Assembly: GCF_036287235.1 (NCBI RefSeq)
Contig: NZ_CP142850.1
Location: 2,187,127-2,251,126 of the forward strand
DNA: 64,000 bases
Direction of reading: 5' to 3'
Origin: Exiguobacterium sp. 9-2
GTDB taxonomy: Bacteria > Bacillota > Bacilli > Exiguobacteriales > Exiguobacteriaceae
Shown here: in pieces, positions 2,225 through 10,027 of the stretch
Numbering within the stretch: the first letter of the stretch is position 1
How the letters are laid out: every line of letters begins with the position of its first letter
Position numbers and translations under genes: made by a program
Notes under the pieces: generated by a model
The model's database searches: none
Told to the model about the DNA's origin: nothing
What the model saw: only the letters and a program-made list of their open reading frames with translations

Positions 2225-2403
2225 GCGCTCTACCCCTTACGTCCAAAGATTTCGTTCCGATCTATCTTTTCGTTCTCTATCCTACATTATAACCATTATA
2301 AAAAAGATTCCAATCAATTTATAAACTAAAATGAGTCGAAGTTGTGAAATCTTCTTCATTTTTTCTCTTCTTCTACCTTATCCCTCTCCCGTAAAAATCA
2401 CAA

Positions 2404-2432
2404 ACCCTCTGCTCCTAAAAAGAGCAGAGGGT
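2404..2432 (-). terminator. Intrinsic terminator after the AI-2E family gene
   Basis: An 11-bp stem (ACCCTCTGCTC pairing with GAGCAGAGGGT) around a short loop lies 6 bases past the stop of the 2439-3581 gene, followed on the minus strand by a T-rich stretch. It closes the five-gene accessory operon. The rest of the 2225-2438 gap holds only the presumed hemA promoter. Confidence 0.75.
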
Positions 2433-2438
2433 TACACT

Positions 2439-3581
2439 TTACTTCAACGATTCAGGTGATACCGTCACGTCCGGTACGTCGAGACGTTGCTGACGTAAAC
2501 GATAAATCCGAGCGATGTTCTGAATGACGACTTTTGAGACCGCATAGGTCGGAACTGCCAAGATGACACCGATGATGCCACCGATTTTCCCGGCAACGAG
2601 CAAAACGATGATGATCGTCAAGGGATGGACCTTGAGTGTTTTTCCTTGAACGTAAGGAGAAATCAAGTTCGATTCGATTTGTTGCGCGACGACGATCGTG
2701 ATGATCGCATAGACCGCTTTGATCGGATCATCAATGAATCCGACAATGACTGCCGGGACGGCACCGATGTAAGGTCCAAGATACGGGATGATGTTCGTCA
2801 CCGTACAGAATAAGGCAAGTAATAACGCATATTGAATGTCAGCAATGAAAAAACCGATCAAGGACATCACACCGACGCAGATTGAGACGATGACCTGTCC
2901 GTTGACGTAATGCTTCACTGTCACGTGCATGTCGTGCAGAATTTTACGCGTTTCCGTTTCGTAGCTACGCGGTAACAATTTCACGACGGAGTCAGGGAAT
3001 TTATACCCGTCAAGCAACATATACACTAAGATGAACGGCACTAAGACGATGATTAAGACCGTCGAAGAGATGACACCGAAAATCGTTCCAACGGACGTCG
3101 AGACGGACTTGAAGACGGTACCGACATACGATGTCGCTTCATTCGTCCACTTATCAAATAAATCTGTATTCTCATGTACCCAGGTCGAGATAAAACGATT
3201 GTCCATCAGCTGATCGCGTAAATTTAACGTTTGATCACGCAATTCGATGACGAGCGTCGGAATGCTTGTTGCAAAATCTGTCACCTGCTCAACTAAGATC
3301 GGTCCGATTGAAGCGACGGCGATCGTCAGGATCGTGATGAAACCAAGTAAAACGATTAACACGGCAAGACCACGTTTCTTGACTCGTTTTTGCAACGCAT
3401 CTACGATCCCAAGCGTGAAGTAATAGAAAATACCCGCAATAATGAGCGGTGGAAAGATCAATGCCAGCATGACTTTTATCGGCTGGAATAAAAATGAGAT
3501 CTTTGTACCGACCCAGATGACAAGAAAAATCACTAATACCCAAATTAATGCTTTAAACCATTTGTTTCGTAACAAATCCAC
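2439..3581 (-). CDS. AI-2E/PerM family membrane protein
   Basis: A 380-residue polytopic membrane protein of the AI-2E transporter (UPF0118/PerM) superfamily. It has two N-terminal hydrophobic segments, a soluble stretch around residues 90-160, then a cluster of C-terminal membrane segments, with the conserved PYLGPYIGAVPAV and SPYVQGKTLKVHPL motifs. The start is a GTG preceded by AGGAGG nine bases upstream. Only 27 bases separate it from the glycosyltransferase gene, so it looks like the last member of that operon. Members have been linked to autoinducer-2 export, Na+/H+ exchange or unknown solutes; substrate cannot be read from sequence. A role with the neighbouring polysaccharide genes is inference. 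Confidence 0.85.
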   Translation of the reverse strand: MDLLRNKWFKALIWVLVIFLVIWVGTKISFLFQPIKVMLALIFPPLIIAGIFYYFTLGIVDALQKRVKKRGLAVLIVLLGFITILTIAVASIGPILVEQVTDFATSIPTLVIELRDQTLNLRDQLMDNRFISTWVHENTDLFDKWTNEATSYVGTVFKSVSTSVGTIFGVISSTVLIIVLVPFILVYMLLDGYKFPDSVVKLLPRSYETETRKILHDMHVTVKHYVNGQVIVSICVGVMSLIGFFIADIQYALLLALFCTVTNIIPYLGPYIGAVPAVIVGFIDDPIKAVYAIITIVVAQQIESNLISPYVQGKTLKVHPLTIIIVLLVAGKIGGIIGVILAVPTYAVSKVVIQNIARIYRLRQQRLDVPDVTVSPESLK

Positions 3582-3608
3582 CTAGCATATCCTCCTCATA
3601 CCTATTCG

Positions 3609-5042
3609 TCAGCCGACTTTTTCCTCGGTGACGTCTTCGAGGCGTTGGCGCTCCATCTGTCCCCAGTTTCCTCGACCAGTCAAGAATTGAATCAATCCCC
3701 CTAGTTTGAAGAAGACTAAAATCGGACGGTACCAGAACGACTCGGTCAAGGACCATAAATACAACCGAATCAATTCTTTGACATTCTTGAATCGGTGCAT
3801 CGTCCACTCTTCCAATAATACGGCACCTGCTGATAATAAGGAACCATAGAGTAAGGCGACGACCAATAAGACGATACCAAATTCAAAGTTAAGCGTCCCG
3901 ACGAGCAGGTTGAGCGGAATAATGAAATATCCCATCAGTTCAACAATAGGTCCGAGTAATTCAATCAAAAAGAAATATAGCATCGAAACGCCACCAACAG
4001 AACCATATTTCGGATTACCGATCATGCGCTTATGCGTCCAGAGTGTCTCAGCTAGCCCACGGTGCCAACGTGTTCGTTGCGACCGCAACACTTCCATTGA
4101 CTCCGGAGCTTGCGTCCAACAGACTGGTGCCGGAACGTACTCGATGCGTTTATCGAGTTTATTTTCCTTCATGTATCGGTGCAAACGAACGACAAGTTCC
4201 ATGTCCTCACCGACAAGTCCTTCCTTATACCCACCTGCTTGGACAACGATGTTCTTTTGGAACAGACCGAACGCACCAGAGACAATCAATAAGATGTTGA
4301 AACGGCTAAGTCCAAGGCGACCAAATAAGAATGCTCGGAAATATTCAATCATCTGCATCAAGACAATCCGTTGTTTTGGTGTCCGAATCTCGACGATTTC
4401 GCCACCTTCAATCGTACAGCCATTGACGAGGAAGATTGAACCACATGTCGCGACGACCTCTTCGTCGGACTCGACGATCGGTTTCATGACTTTTAATAGG
4501 GCATCCCGCTCTAAAATCGAATCCGCGTCAAGCGAGCAGAAATACGGATAACTGGAATGGTCGATACCGGCATTCAAGGCATCTGCCTTTCCACCATTCT
4601 CTTTATCGATAACGATTAAACGACTATCGATCCGCGAACGGTAGACTTGTTTGACCGGCTTCGAACCAATTAGAATCCGCGGATAGCGGATTTCCTTCTC
4701 CAGCTCATACGATCGGAACAATTCGTCCATCGTTCCGTCCTTTGAACCATCATTGATGACGATGACTTCATGCTCCGGATAGTCAAGTGCTAGCAAAGCT
4801 TGGACACTCGAGACGATCGTATATTCCTCATTGTACGCTGGAACAAGGATACTGACCGGTCGTGTATAGAGAGAGCGCATCAGTGGCAAGTAAGAGCTCT
4901 CTTTCCGACGGAAGCGTTGCCGTCGCACCATTTGAGCTGAAATCAGGTAAAGCATCGAATAGAATACGATGACGAGTAACATATAAATCAACACTGTCCA
5001 TGAAAGGACTTCAATAATGGCTTGGATTGTCTCAGACGACAT
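3609..5042 (-). CDS. Processive family-2 glycosyltransferase, membrane-bound
   Basis: A 477-residue inner-membrane glycosyltransferase of the cellulose/hyaluronan/poly-GlcNAc synthase type. An N-terminal membrane segment (about 10-36) precedes the GT-A domain with VPAYNEE, the nucleotide-binding INDGS (Asp98), SLDADS (Asp172/Asp174), GED (Glu279-Asp280) and QRTRW (322-326), the full signature of processive beta-glycosyltransferases. Several membrane segments follow from about residue 350. No C-terminal PilZ domain is present, so cyclic-di-GMP control of the BcsA kind is not apparent. Its first 11 bases overlap the upstream HEAT-repeat gene. Most likely product: a beta-linked extracellular polysaccharide; the sugar is unknown. 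Confidence 0.9.
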   Translation of the reverse strand: MSSETIQAIIEVLSWTVLIYMLLVIVFYSMLYLISAQMVRRQRFRRKESSYLPLMRSLYTRPVSILVPAYNEEYTIVSSVQALLALDYPEHEVIVINDGSKDGTMDELFRSYELEKEIRYPRILIGSKPVKQVYRSRIDSRLIVIDKENGGKADALNAGIDHSSYPYFCSLDADSILERDALLKVMKPIVESDEEVVATCGSIFLVNGCTIEGGEIVEIRTPKQRIVLMQMIEYFRAFLFGRLGLSRFNILLIVSGAFGLFQKNIVVQAGGYKEGLVGEDMELVVRLHRYMKENKLDKRIEYVPAPVCWTQAPESMEVLRSQRTRWHRGLAETLWTHKRMIGNPKYGSVGGVSMLYFFLIELLGPIVELMGYFIIPLNLLVGTLNFEFGIVLLVVALLYGSLLSAGAVLLEEWTMHRFKNVKELIRLYLWSLTESFWYRPILVFFKLGGLIQFLTGRGNWGQMERQRLEDVTEEKVG

Positions 5043-6054
5043 GATGCTTCATCTCCTTTGCCAACCGTTCTGTAGCTTTTTGACGTGCATAGCGGTCGGG
5101 ATGTGTACTTGATACTTTCGCCAATTGTTCGATCCCGCCACAAGCAAGCAGCGCATCAAAGGCAGCCGTCCGGACCCACCACGATCGACTACCGACAAAC
5201 GGCAAGATCGCTGGTATCGCATCGGCTGGAACGACATGTTCTAAGAAACGAAGGGCAAGCATTTGCTCAACCCAACTTGATTCTTCTTCCAAGTAAGGCA
5301 CATATAACTTCCAGTCCTCCTCAAGCCCGATTCGCGTGAGCGCACGAAGGGCACGTTTTCGGATTTCTGGATTTTCATCTGTCGTCTTGTCACGAACGAG
5401 TGCGATATAACGTGTCTCATCGCGGTCAAAGATCAACTGAAGGATTGCTAACTTAAAGGACAGTGTCAATTCTTCGAACGCAGCCACCCACTCCTCTAAG
5501 TCTTGACTACGACCAACCGCAAGAATCGCACCGAAGAAACTAATCCCATTTTCTTGCTTGGCGATGGCGATCGCATCTTGCGGTGATAGTGAGACGAGGG
5601 TCCGAACGATGACATCGCTCTCTTCTTTTTCAATCGTGTTTCCCCAACGCGCATGAATCATCGGTGCGACTGCTACCAAACGGAATTGAGAGACGGCCTC
5701 ATAAGCGTTCAAGCGACGGTCAATCCGGCGATGCTTCAATTGTTGTTCGTAATAGGCTTGCATATTAGCAGCGACAAAAGCTTGCACTCGTTCGAGATGT
5801 GCCGGTGTTGCCGTCAAGTTAGACAGTGCGAAGAGCTCAAGCTCAGCTAAATCCTCGTTTCCTTTTTGAACCGTCGGCATGTCCTGACGTTCACCTGTCG
5901 CATAGTCGTAGATGTCATCTCGAAAGACAAGTTGCCAATCGCTACGGGCATGCTCGCGGTTGGCACGTTTTCGTTTTTGAACGACGAGATAGACCAATGC
6001 TCCACCTTGTAAGAAAACGAGTACAACGATAAATACTAGAATCGCCTGCATCAT
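5032..6054 (-). CDS. Membrane-anchored HEAT-repeat protein
   Basis: A 340-residue protein with one N-terminal membrane helix (about residues 3-26) followed by a basic stretch, so the body is probably cytoplasmic. From about residue 130 it is made of paired amphipathic helices typical of HEAT repeats; the clearest repeats lie at about 205-330 (IRKRALRALTRIG, then VRTAAFDALLACGG). HEAT arrays serve as protein-binding scaffolds. Its ATG overlaps the stop of the receiver-like gene (ATGA) and its end overlaps the glycosyltransferase start by 11 bases, so the three are translationally coupled. A scaffold or regulator of the synthase is the natural inference; no enzymatic motif is seen. Confidence 0.85.
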   Translation of the reverse strand: MMQAILVFIVVLVFLQGGALVYLVVQKRKRANREHARSDWQLVFRDDIYDYATGERQDMPTVQKGNEDLAELELFALSNLTATPAHLERVQAFVAANMQAYYEQQLKHRRIDRRLNAYEAVSQFRLVAVAPMIHARWGNTIEKEESDVIVRTLVSLSPQDAIAIAKQENGISFFGAILAVGRSQDLEEWVAAFEELTLSFKLAILQLIFDRDETRYIALVRDKTTDENPEIRKRALRALTRIGLEEDWKLYVPYLEEESSWVEQMLALRFLEHVVPADAIPAILPFVGSRSWWVRTAAFDALLACGGIEQLAKVSSTHPDRYARQKATERLAKEMKHHVV

Positions 6055-6797
6055 CGGCCATCCTCAACTTTTCGGATCCACGCGCGGAATTCTTCGATTT
6101 TTAACGGAAGGGTCATAATGTAATCAACACCTCGGTCAATCGCAAGAACATGATCGCGTTCACGGTTGTACATCGAAATCATCATCGATTGGAACGGTGC
6201 GACACTCTGATGTTTTGCTCGCAGTAGTAATTCCAGCCCATCTGCTCGTGGTAATGCTGACGTAAACACGAGTAAGTACGGACGGGATGCTACGTACTCG
6301 TCAAGGAATGTCTCTGCTCGTTCGAATGTTACGAACCGTTCGAAGCGTTCCGTCAGTTCCCGTTCCATCATCCGACGGATATGCGGATCTTCCGTTACGA
6401 CGACGACATCCGCGATATAATGGATTTTTTTATAACGCGCTAGCCGGTCAAGGACAAGCTCCCGCGATAGTGTCGCCGGTAGAATTTCTCGCGCATTTTC
6501 TAAACCATAGAAAGAAGTCTCTGTATTAAAATACACGACGGGAATTCGTTCCTCGATGACAGGTTCGCTTGCGAGAACGACATCGGCATAAGAAATGTCC
6601 GTCCGCACGCACCATCCCTCTTCAATCAATCCGTTGACCGCCTCCGGCATTTGTCCGACTGTGTGCACGAACAAGGTATTCGTCGACGATTGCCGGACGG
6701 TTTCTTCCGTCCATTCAATCGTCGAACTGACCTCACGATCTTGACTTGTTGATTCAAACGACTGATTGATTAATTTCCACATCTCTTCACGTCGCAT
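6051..6797 (-). CDS. Receiver-like protein lacking phospho-acceptor residues
   Basis: A 248-residue soluble protein. The C-terminal half (about 130-246) has the order of a response-regulator receiver: VVVVTEDP with the acidic pair Glu136-Asp137, then the strand ending LLVFTSALPRADG, then MMISMY, then MTLPLKIEEF. The normal phospho-acceptor Asp is Thr179 and the invariant Lys before Pro is Leu230, so it should not be phosphorylated in the usual way. The N-terminal half may be a second, more degenerate copy. No DNA-binding domain is present. Its ATG directly follows the stop of the glycoside hydrolase gene, with the ribosome site inside that gene's last codons, and its own stop overlaps the HEAT gene. 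Confidence 0.8.
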   Translation of the reverse strand: MRREEMWKLINQSFESTSQDREVSSTIEWTEETVRQSSTNTLFVHTVGQMPEAVNGLIEEGWCVRTDISYADVVLASEPVIEERIPVVYFNTETSFYGLENAREILPATLSRELVLDRLARYKKIHYIADVVVVTEDPHIRRMMERELTERFERFVTFERAETFLDEYVASRPYLLVFTSALPRADGLELLLRAKHQSVAPFQSMMISMYNRERDHVLAIDRGVDYIMTLPLKIEEFRAWIRKVEDGR

Positions 6798-9700
6798 TTA
6801 ATTTCCTCCCTCAGTGAATGCTTTTTTCATCGTCCGATAGACAGGTTTCAGTTCTTCTCGCTGTTGCGGATTCGTCCACTCTGCCCAGTTGTAGAAACCA
6901 CGATCTTTTTCAGGGATACGTGTCTCACCGACTTGACCTGTGACTTCGATTCCTTCCGTAATCATCTTCGCTTCTAATCCATCTTTCCAGAAGTCACCGA
7001 TGATTTCATGTTTACTAGGGTCTCGCATATTCAAGACCATCCATGGAATACGGAGCTCTACGGTTGGTTTCGTGATATCTGAGATATCTGTCAAGATATC
7101 GTCTGGTTCTCCTTCATGTAGAACACCCGTGTCCCACTTTACGGCTGGTTTGACGATTTTTTTCGTCACCGGGTCGCGTCTTGCATAATCGAGCATTTGA
7201 TAAATTGGAACGAACTTACCGCTGTCTTTTTGATCAGACGGTGGTTTTACCATCTCAAACGGCATCTTGAGACCATAGTGATAACGGAAGATATCATAAC
7301 GAGCATCGACATCGATGCGCGCCTTCTGATCGATCGTCAGGCGATATTCCGCTCCTTCATCAAGCATCAGCGGACCGACTTTCGTATTCCCATCGTTTGG
7401 TTTCGTCGATAGCGCAAGTGTCGTCGGCTCTGCTTTTTTCCGGTCGATACGCAAATAGAGATAGGCTTCGTCGGATGTCATATATATCGCTTGATCCTTA
7501 TTTTCAGCGACTGGTGCATACCCTTTCCAATCATCCAATTTCCCGTCAATGACGATATCTGAACGTAGGAAACCAAGCATACCGAAATGTTGTTCGCTCG
7601 TCTGGACATTCGACCAACGGGGACGCGTATTGGCATCATCATAATCCATCGTGTTCCACGTCCGCTTGAACCATTCATCTTGCCAGATGAAGACGAGTCC
7701 ACCGGCTGTTTTGACGTCTTTAATGTCTTGATAGAGTTGTGCGACGAGTTCGCCTTGTTTCTTCTCACTGACATGCCCTTGATCGAAACCATTTGGTCCG
7801 AGGTGCGTCTTCCCGCGAGAACTCGGAATTCCGAATTCTGATACAAGTAGCGGCATATCATGATAATCCTTCATCTTCTTCAAGTAACGGGCATACGATT
7901 CAGATCCTTTGTCCGTTTTTTGACTGTACTCTTCCTTGATGAACGAAGGATAGTACGGATAGATGTGGTAAGACGCGAACAAGCCACCCGGGAAATCCTT
8001 CGTTGCTTTTAAGTGATTGAAATCAATGGAGACGAGGTCCTGTTCTTCCTCAATCTCTTTTGGGTGTTTCAACGGATCCGTCGTCGGCCAGTTCGTCGAA
8101 CCGATTGGTCGTGTTGTACCGTACTCTTTGATTTCGTGTGCAGTCGCCGTATCCATCCGACCTGCTAACCACGATTCGAAAGGAGACGCTTCTTTCGTCG
8201 TCGTTACGTATTGTCCTTCGAAACGTGTTCCTTTGTTCTTTTTATTTGTTTCAACGACAGCTTCCGGTAACCATTCGATTCCGAAGACGAATGCTGAAAC
8301 GTATTGCGAGACGTCTGAAGTATATGTTCCGGAAGCATGACCAACAACTTCTTTAACGACTGCGTTTCCATGAATGACATCAACCATTCGTTTTGCTTCC
8401 GTATCTGTCATCTTCATGAACTTTGGATCGAATGCATTTTTTAGTTCCTCGAACGGCTTCTCTTCGACCCACATGCCTTGCATGAGATAAATCGGTTGTT
8501 TCGCCTGTTCGTTGTAAGCTTTTAATGCATCGTAAAAAGCAGGAGGGTGCAACGTGTACACACGAATCGTATTGACCCCCATCGCTCCGATTTCCTTCAA
8601 CCAACGATCATATTCGTTTCGGCTGATGGCATGTTCCCCAGGAAATGCACCTGGTCGACCAAGTCCAATGTTGACACCCTTAACGAAGTACGGCTTCCAT
8701 TCACCATCTTGATACATCTCAAGTGTGTCCTGTCCTTCACGAGCTCGGGTCCGCAACTCTTGGTTACCGACCTTCGTTTTTGAAAGTGGTTTGACCTTCG
8801 CAGTTTGTGTCGAGATCCGTTTCGTATCCTCAAGAATCCGCGTCAGCGTCGGGGCGTAAATCTTCCAGAAGAACGCCGATTCACTTTCCGCACTATCGAG
8901 GATGAACTGTTTGCGGAACCAATCGAGACCACTGTATCGATAATAACGTGGGATATCCGCGACGTCCGTATAATCACCAGCAAAATAGTGACCACTTCCT
9001 TGCGTGACATACGCTGGAAACTCAAGCGGCAACTGGTATTTTCGAAGCATTGCTTGTGTCTGTTTCGAAGGGTTCCAAGAGAAATGCGCTTGTTGTTTCC
9101 CGCCATCTAGTTCAAGAATCTCGAACCAGTAGTTATAACGGACCTCATCTTTTGCATTCCCCTTATTTTGATCCCACTTGTAAAGTAAAGGAGTGTCATC
9201 ATTGACGAAAAAAGCTTTTTCGGTCGAATCATTAATAAAAACATAACCCGGACCTGATAGTTTGAACTCTTTTTCTTTCGCTTGTGTTTTTAATTGAGCT
9301 ACGACGTTTTTCTCAAGACCTTGCAGTTTTGTTAAATCTGGGAAAAATCGACCGATCCATCCTGTCCAAGCCGTCCCGAATAATTGTCGAAACGCATTGG
9401 ACCGCTCGACTGACGTCGGACTTGCTGCTGTATTAAATTCCGCCACAACGGTTTTCCCTTGCGAAATCGCTTCAGTTGCGAGCTCGACGTCTTCTGTCGT
9501 CAAGCCACCACGATGTTCTTTTTTCCCGTTGACGTCATATGATTTTCCGTACGTATCCGTAAACAACAGCACATCTGCTTTAGAGGCTTGTTGTAACATT
9601 TTTTTACCTTGTGTACCATCATAACGGTTGATGTAGTCCGAATACGTATAATCTTGCCCTTGCGTATTTCGGATCTTTAAGTGATTCAATAACCACGTCG

Positions 9701-9845
9701 TTCCGGCATGCTCTCGCTCTTCCGTTCCGTTCGTGTAATCAAATAGCGCAATGTTTAATGTCTTTTCCTGCTTCAAGAACCAAATGGCAAATGGTGTCAG
9801 AATGAGTAAGACGACGATTGCGAACGTCCATTTATAACGCCTCAT
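6798..9845 (-). CDS. Membrane-anchored glycoside hydrolase-like protein, multidomain
   Basis: A 1,015-residue protein with an N-terminal signal-anchor (about residues 5-24) placing the rest outside the cell. Three parts are visible: residues ~30-330 of unassigned alpha/beta type (VLLFTDTYG, KTVVAEFN), a TIM-barrel glycoside hydrolase domain at about 375-740 resembling clan GH-A (FVKGVNIG, MGVNTIRVYTLHPP, FGIEW, LLVSEFGIP with a probable nucleophile Glu670), and a C-terminal beta-rich region from about 763 that begins IDGKLDDW, as in CBM9-like domains. The ATG at 9845 is preferred to an in-frame GTG at 9863 because GGGAGG precedes it. It heads the five-gene operon; trimming or modifying the polymer made by the downstream synthase is inferred. 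Confidence 0.85.
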   Translation of the reverse strand: MRRYKWTFAIVVLLILTPFAIWFLKQEKTLNIALFDYTNGTEEREHAGTTWLLNHLKIRNTQGQDYTYSDYINRYDGTQGKKMLQQASKADVLLFTDTYGKSYDVNGKKEHRGGLTTEDVELATEAISQGKTVVAEFNTAASPTSVERSNAFRQLFGTAWTGWIGRFFPDLTKLQGLEKNVVAQLKTQAKEKEFKLSGPGYVFINDSTEKAFFVNDDTPLLYKWDQNKGNAKDEVRYNYWFEILELDGGKQQAHFSWNPSKQTQAMLRKYQLPLEFPAYVTQGSGHYFAGDYTDVADIPRYYRYSGLDWFRKQFILDSAESESAFFWKIYAPTLTRILEDTKRISTQTAKVKPLSKTKVGNQELRTRAREGQDTLEMYQDGEWKPYFVKGVNIGLGRPGAFPGEHAISRNEYDRWLKEIGAMGVNTIRVYTLHPPAFYDALKAYNEQAKQPIYLMQGMWVEEKPFEELKNAFDPKFMKMTDTEAKRMVDVIHGNAVVKEVVGHASGTYTSDVSQYVSAFVFGIEWLPEAVVETNKKNKGTRFEGQYVTTTKEASPFESWLAGRMDTATAHEIKEYGTTRPIGSTNWPTTDPLKHPKEIEEEQDLVSIDFNHLKATKDFPGGLFASYHIYPYYPSFIKEEYSQKTDKGSESYARYLKKMKDYHDMPLLVSEFGIPSSRGKTHLGPNGFDQGHVSEKKQGELVAQLYQDIKDVKTAGGLVFIWQDEWFKRTWNTMDYDDANTRPRWSNVQTSEQHFGMLGFLRSDIVIDGKLDDWKGYAPVAENKDQAIYMTSDEAYLYLRIDRKKAEPTTLALSTKPNDGNTKVGPLMLDEGAEYRLTIDQKARIDVDARYDIFRYHYGLKMPFEMVKPPSDQKDSGKFVPIYQMLDYARRDPVTKKIVKPAVKWDTGVLHEGEPDDILTDISDITKPTVELRIPWMVLNMRDPSKHEIIGDFWKDGLEAKMITEGIEVTGQVGETRIPEKDRGFYNWAEWTNPQQREELKPVYRTMKKAFTEGGN

Positions 9846-9983
9846 ATTGGCATAGCCTCCCACTAGAACAATTTGTTCCTATCATTGTAACGTGAATCAA
9901 ATGATGTTCATATAATGGAAATCAAAAATGTTGTAAGGAAATAATTAGATACTATTTTTAGATTACTTTAACCCTCATAAAAA

Positions 9984-10019
9984 AACGTCCTGCTCTCCTA
10001 TTGTAGGAGAACAAAACGT
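9984..10019 (-). terminator. Intrinsic terminator of the lon-engB operon
   Basis: A hairpin with arms pairing ACG..CTCCTA with TAGGAG..CGT lies just past the engB stop and is followed by seven T on the minus strand. The rest of the 9846-10027 gap is AT-rich and should hold the promoter of the glycoside hydrolase operon; a TACAAT lies near 9885-9890 but a convincing -35 is not seen. Confidence 0.75.
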
Positions 10020-10027
10020 TTCGTTTT

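Follow-up and report, generated by a model that had tools for sequence, protein, structure and literature searches.

A four-gene block beside engB in Exiguobacterium sp. 9-2 as a probable synthase-dependent exopolysaccharide system

Many biofilm matrices consist of synthase-dependent exopolysaccharides, and those of Gram-positive bacteria are poorly charted. Among the closest described systems, the ydaJKLMN operon of Bacillus subtilis is a Gram-positive exopolysaccharide operon of the synthase type, in which the degenerate-GGDEF receptor YdaK drives the glycosyltransferases YdaM and YdaN and needs its I-site (R202, D205) to do so (PMC5422440). PelD, encoded in the pelDEADAFG operon of Bacillus cereus together with a hydrolase, has a degenerate GGDEF domain whose RxxD I-site (R363, D366, R395) binds cyclic di-GMP (c-di-GMP; PMC7112168). 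Processive family 2 glycosyltransferases (GT2) are found in the pgaABCD and icaADBC operons for poly-N-acetylglucosamine (PNAG), and in the BcsA and clostridial CcsA/CcsZ systems (PMC7710045), which have a hydrolase encoded nearby. Here, we describe a block of four genes in a 64,000-nucleotide stretch of Exiguobacterium sp. 9-2 (NZ_CP142850.1, positions 2,187,127 to 2,251,126; hereafter the window), which belongs to a genome of 3.06 Mb. The genes encode a glycoside hydrolase-like protein (GH), a receiver-like regulator, a HEAT-repeat protein, and a GT2. We estimate a probability of about 0.72 that they form a synthase-dependent exopolysaccharide system.

The minus strand carries, in order, clpX, lon, engB, the four genes, AI-2E (a gene for an AI-2E-family membrane protein), and hemA. 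An earlier note on this DNA had described a five-gene cassette, including AI-2E, inserted between hemA and engB. We corrected both statements: the unit comprises four genes at positions 3609-9845 and lies between engB and AI-2E, because AI-2E is the resident neighbor of hemA. In a family sample of 38 genomes, 19 from the genus of the window and 19 from its sister genus, AI-2E directly adjoined hemA in 38/38, with or without the cassette, and no AI-2E homologue occurred near the cassette in 80 relatives' loci from other genera (0/80). AI-2E was also considered as a polymer exporter and rejected, since it is present without the cassette.

Within the genus, 14 of 19 genomes have the GH gene, whereas the 19 genomes of the sister genus have none; in the same 14/19 the cassette sits between engB and AI-2E; in four other genomes of the genus this site is empty. 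The loci compared read engB–GH–REC–HEAT–GT2–AI-2E–hemA in 13 cassette-bearing relatives, versus engB–AI-2E–hemA among nine genomes lacking the cassette. The block was probably gained or lost as one unit at this site. Its exact ends are not readable, as similarity to the empty sites stops at the end of engB and resumes at the start of AI-2E, and no target-site duplication was seen at the flanks in comparison with the empty sites. The GC content of the cassette (46.8%) versus that of the window (46.7%) gave no sign of recent transfer. Where the site is empty, the region upstream of AI-2E is longer and includes a TATAAT-like element, whereas only 27 nucleotides remain in front of AI-2E in the window; AI-2E there is therefore probably dependent on readthrough from the cassette.

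The block extends far beyond the genus. When one genome of each species was scanned, relatives of the GH appeared in at least 572 genome stretches, and an even sample of the phylum yielded a GH match in 25 of 398 genomes. Among the best 80 of the at least 572 stretches, all loci of other genera, a GT2 gene lay within 10 kb of the GH gene in 66 and the HEAT and GT2 genes were adjacent in 61. A tblastn search of the GH against plasmids identified distant carriers in Deinococcus radiophilus, Planococcus maritimus, and Paenibacillus cellulosilyticus, and in all three the GH is followed directly by HEAT and GT2 genes homologous to those of the window. A search of viral contigs for the GT2 found nothing. 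The gene order differs between groups: the window has GH–REC–HEAT–GT2, and the usual order in Bacillales is regulator–HEAT–GT2–GH, with genes for a lone receiver and a hybrid histidine kinase coming next in some loci. The association of GH, HEAT, and GT2 across Bacillota and Deinococcota is far beyond chance. Both the gene content and the conservation as a block thus bear out the proposal, made in the earlier note, of a system combining a synthase, a regulator, and a hydrolase.

Two observations concern the surroundings of these relatives. On the Planococcus plasmid (L018:5389-12824), the GH gene comes directly after genes for VTC-domain, DUF4956, and CotH-kinase proteins, and a Qat defence system follows. 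In some Planococcus and Paenibacillus loci (L051:15856-16815, L038:15941-16810, and L016:8449-9546), an unrelated secreted TIM-barrel-like protein, whose L051 copy has no Pfam match, is encoded next to the HEAT/GT2 or GH genes.

The GT2 matches the Pfam GT2 families and has several membrane helices. It has DGS, DADS, GED, and QxxRW motifs that do not vary among members from Exiguobacterium, Paenibacillus, Planococcus, and Deinococcus. In a profile search, it matched cellulose and hyaluronan synthases of solved structure. The motifs and helices together identify it as a predicted processive-type polysaccharide synthase. It is not BcsA, scoring 48 of the 699 bits of the CelA model TIGR03030, and Pfam gave no PilZ match in it. 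The HEAT protein (Pfam HEAT_2, 3.5e-11) has one N-terminal transmembrane helix by hydropathy (residues 7-25), with no Lys or Arg before it and six after it; the repeats and C-terminus are therefore predicted to be cytoplasmic. Given this topology and the near-constant adjacency of the HEAT and GT2 genes, the protein would naturally connect the regulator to the catalytic domain of the GT2, both of which lie in the cytosol.

Neither Pfam nor NCBIfam has a family for the GH, and a sequence search against solved structures in the PDB gave no convincing match, leaving fold comparison as the sole informative approach. Its N-terminus contains one transmembrane helix (residues 6-24) preceded by positive charges, and the protein is therefore predicted to be anchored by this helix and to face outside. 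We modeled it with AlphaFold2 (AF2), using an alignment of 31 sequences that excluded those from plasmid records (mean predicted local distance difference test, pLDDT, 80.9). The model comprises an N-terminal domain of no assigned fold (~27-345), an eight-stranded (beta/alpha)8 barrel (~355-770), which is a predicted and not a solved structure, and a C-terminal beta domain (~770-1015). Strands 4 (516-524) and 7 (666-671) of the barrel carry E524 and E670, respectively, at their ends, and both residues are invariant in the 31 aligned homologues. They are the candidate acid/base and nucleophile, in that order, and Glu residues in these two places assign the modeled barrel to clan GH-A (the 4/7 superfamily). 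The fold ranking put GH157 first (Z score 25.9), followed by GH2 glucuronidases and GH5 mannanases. The best structural match was the GH157 endo-beta-1,3-glucanase LaGH157 (PDB 9g4n), with a root-mean-square deviation of 2.9 over 298 residues and 17% identity. The resemblance is structural only: no match to a solved GH157 appeared at the sequence level, and the GH has an additional N-terminal domain and a membrane anchor.

The architecture of the GH varies among relatives. Paenibacillus cellulosilyticus encodes two tandem paralogues before HEAT and GT2 (L016:9729-15033), only one of which has the strand-4 Glu. In Deinococcus radiophilus (L017:11488-13914), TPR repeats replace the N-terminal domain. 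In six genomes (G142, G087, G231, G413, G103, and G054), there are separate matches to the N-terminal domain of the GH (profile 1-380), often in a frame of ~380 amino acids, and to the core, in frames of ~700-760 amino acids; the two parts are therefore separable.

From these features, we propose the following mechanism. The GT2 would polymerize a nucleotide sugar at the cytoplasmic side of the membrane and extrude a beta-linked chain, which the outward-facing GH would trim or release through a retaining clan GH-A active site. The membrane-tethered HEAT protein may be an adaptor that docks on the catalytic domain of the GT2 and relays to it the state of the receiver-type regulator. Across the wider family, an Hpt-REC-GGDEF-REC regulator fed by a hybrid histidine kinase would supply a phosphorelay and c-di-GMP input; alternatively, a dead GGDEF domain would bind c-di-GMP through its I-site. 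The Exiguobacterium regulator, which has lost the acceptor, the Lys, and any detectable I-site, could be a fixed protein-contact subunit or a responder to another signal. The sequences themselves show which genes are present, that they are kept together, which motifs are lost or retained, a predicted barrel with two Glu residues in the canonical places, and how the site is occupied. The polysaccharide nature of the product, its beta linkage, the adaptor role of HEAT, and the direction of signaling are what we infer from genes and models, and we are less confident of the HEAT-adaptor and c-di-GMP details than of the exopolysaccharide system itself.

The regulators of the relatives fall along a series. 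In many Bacillales, the regulator is an Hpt-REC-GGDEF-REC protein with a hybrid histidine kinase in the operon. In another clade, covering about 20 rows of a GT2 tree whose root is unsafe because long branches meet there, it mostly has 270-340 amino acids, the GGDEF motif is gone, and the terminal receiver usually carries Asn, not Asp, at the acceptor position. In an alignment of 19 such dead domains (133 columns; median pairwise identity 26%), the best-conserved positions include, counted from GGEEF, R at -9 (19/19), D at -6 (17/19), and R at +22 (19/19). The clade thus appears to keep a nearly invariant c-di-GMP I-site (RxxD plus R), and its regulator is a predicted c-di-GMP receptor. The 31-residue spacing between the two Arg residues is that of PleD (R359/D362/R390). 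A kinase was found in 0/22 loci with a non-Asp acceptor versus 19/33 loci with an Asp acceptor.

In the window, the regulator ends in a degenerate receiver (residues 126-244), which scored 29.7 bits against Pfam Response_reg, just below the cut-off, and aligned with the relatives' receivers in hhalign over these residues only (probability 95.5, E-value 1.3e-8). The phospho-acceptor Asp is replaced by Thr (Ser in congeners) and the conserved Lys by Leu, so that by these two residues the protein does not qualify as a phospho-accepting response regulator. The genome is rich in GGDEF (23 matches, and one PilZ), and the window receiver is homologous to those of the dead-GGDEF regulators, which could suggest that a cryptic GGDEF-derived N-terminal domain still senses c-di-GMP. 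We consider this unlikely: the N-terminal 125 residues did not align with the relatives' regulators in hhalign, the Arg of the I-site varies within the genus, and the AF2 model of the protein was unusable (pLDDT 42). Since no I-site is detectable, the window regulator probably works by protein contact. The earlier note had proposed a regulation that is not based on PilZ or c-di-GMP in the synthase itself; this stands for the synthase, which has no PilZ match, but independence from c-di-GMP is not supported for the family, whose regulators are either REC-GGDEF proteins with a hybrid kinase or dead GGDEF domains that appear to keep the I-site.

Polyprenyl-phosphate transferases share GT2 folds, and the GH barrel also resembles exo-acting GH2 glucuronidases. 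Both points would fit a module for wall or surface-protein glycosylation, in which the GT2 product is a sugar or short glycan on a polyprenyl carrier and the GH trims wall glycans, with no secreted polymer. However, QxxRW together with DxD, GED, and several transmembrane segments is the signature of processive synthases, and relatives couple the GT2 to GGDEF regulators, as is usual for synthases of biofilm polysaccharides. We therefore regard such a module as distinctly improbable.

Two observations favor a variant of the PNAG system, with a divergent PgaC/IcaA as its GT2 and with the GH taking the place of PgaB's hydrolase half. PgaC_IcaA is the closest NCBIfam family of the GT2, and in one congener (G025), a true PNAG operon (L112:3661-6286) with pgaC, pgaD-like, and icaB-like genes fills the same slot between engB and AI-2E. 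The score of the cassette GT2, however, was 131 bits against a cut-off of 422.3 (TIGR03937), while the G025 synthase, encoded beside a PgaD-like protein and an IcaB-like deacetylase, reached 537 bits against 422. Neither a PgaD/IcaD partner nor a PgaB/IcaB deacetylase was found among the cassette genes, and clan GH-A is, to our knowledge, not the clan of the PNAG hydrolases (GH153, GH20). We therefore find the PNAG variant very doubtful. In favor of the proposed system, a bona fide PgaC occurred in 0/14 genomes with the cassette versus 11/24 others, and the two were never found together (Fisher p 0.0026, 38 genomes). Finally, the idea that unrelated genes came together in this operon by chance can practically be dismissed: tight spacing by itself is common in bacterial genomes, but members of the GH, HEAT, and GT2 families are found together in distant phyla and in rearranged order, which refutes this explanation for the four genes and leaves it valid for AI-2E.

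Several points weigh against a synthase-dependent exopolysaccharide system working as proposed. The exclusion between cassette and PgaC is confounded by phylogeny, as 10 of the 11 PgaC genomes belong to the sister genus; the shared slot in G025 is free of this confounding. In 14 of the 80 relatives' loci, the GH had no GT2 within 10 kb, and it may sometimes act alone. Hydrolysis is not essential everywhere, because the GH of the Planococcus plasmid has lost both catalytic Glu residues; one P. cellulosilyticus copy has lost one. An independent-pairs test of acceptor loss against kinase loss gave 1.4 concordant and 0 discordant pairs and lacks power. Contact of the HEAT protein with the GT2 or the regulator is suggested by adjacency and topology only. 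The polymer, the enzyme activity, and the signal are predictions from sequence and models.

The features of the locus are listed in Table 1. All five open reading frames were confirmed as co-directional, each has a Shine-Dalgarno-like sequence, and the terminator expected at the end was present, in agreement with the earlier note. Its account of the junctions needed amendment: the spacing is indeed tight, but five genes have four junctions, of which the first three are tight and the fourth is a gap. The GH and receiver genes abut directly (0 nucleotides), the receiver and HEAT genes overlap by 4 nucleotides (ATGA), the HEAT and GT2 genes by 11 nucleotides, and 27 nucleotides separate the GT2 stop from the AI-2E start. 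Translational coupling was judged from the overlaps and the positions of the ribosome-binding sites only. An upstream GTG at 9863 is an alternative start of the GH, less likely than the ATG at 9845. No high-scoring sigma-70 consensus was listed within the engB-cassette intergenic region, where the cassette promoter is presumed to lie.

Table 1. Features of the cassette and its flanks (positions in the window)
Feature	Positions	Strand	Description
GH	6798..9845	-	1015 aa; start ATG with GGGAGG
Receiver-like regulator	6051..6797	-	248 aa
HEAT-repeat protein	5032..6054	-	340 aa
GT2	3609..5042	-	477 aa; processive-type family 2 glycosyltransferase with membrane helices
AI-2E-family membrane protein	2439..3581	-	hemA neighbor; co-transcribed by position; outside the cassette
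Intrinsic terminator 3' of AI-2E	2403..2433	-	14-bp stem, U-rich tail
engB-cassette intergenic region	9846..10027	-	stem-loop and T run right after engB, then presumed promoter region

The earlier note knew of no described system with its set of genes, and for the four genes this agrees with the open-access literature, where our searches turned up no operon made up in this way, although subscription papers could hold an earlier description. Nor did we find one in the main survey of synthase-dependent operons (PMC7112194). The GH family is encoded in hundreds of genomes, yet it has no family model. The regulators of the cassette family lead from a c-di-GMP enzyme through a predicted c-di-GMP receptor to a protein that apparently has neither function, and the evolution of synthase control is therefore directly testable.

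Compared with the known systems, the cassette shares single traits with each. The BcsA and CcsA/CcsZ systems have a processive GT2 and a nearby hydrolase, but the cassette lacks PilZ, falls short of the CelA model, shows no BcsB, and has a hydrolase of another kind. The PNAG operons share the processive GT2 and, in one congener, the chromosomal slot; they differ in the synthase family, PgaD, and the deacetylase. Like the family, the pel operon encodes a degenerate GGDEF domain with an RxxD I-site, whereas the cassette has no counterpart of PelF, PelG, PelE, or PelA and a different type of synthase, and pel has no HEAT protein. The ydaJKLMN operon has an I-site like the one predicted for the dead-GGDEF clade. 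YdaK, however, is a membrane protein, and no HEAT protein, receiver domain, or clan GH-A hydrolase of the cassette's family has been described there; this distinction is drawn from the published description. Tentatively, and at less than even odds, we suggest that the cassette represents a widespread class of synthase machines in Bacillota and Deinococcota. In this class, a membrane-tethered HEAT protein would serve as the allosteric switch of the GT2 in place of PilZ, PelD, or PgaD, and a new clan GH-A family would process a new beta-linked glycan. The regulator would have passed stepwise from a c-di-GMP maker (REC-GGDEF) to a receptor (dead GGDEF with an intact I-site) and, in Exiguobacterium, to a signal-free subunit.

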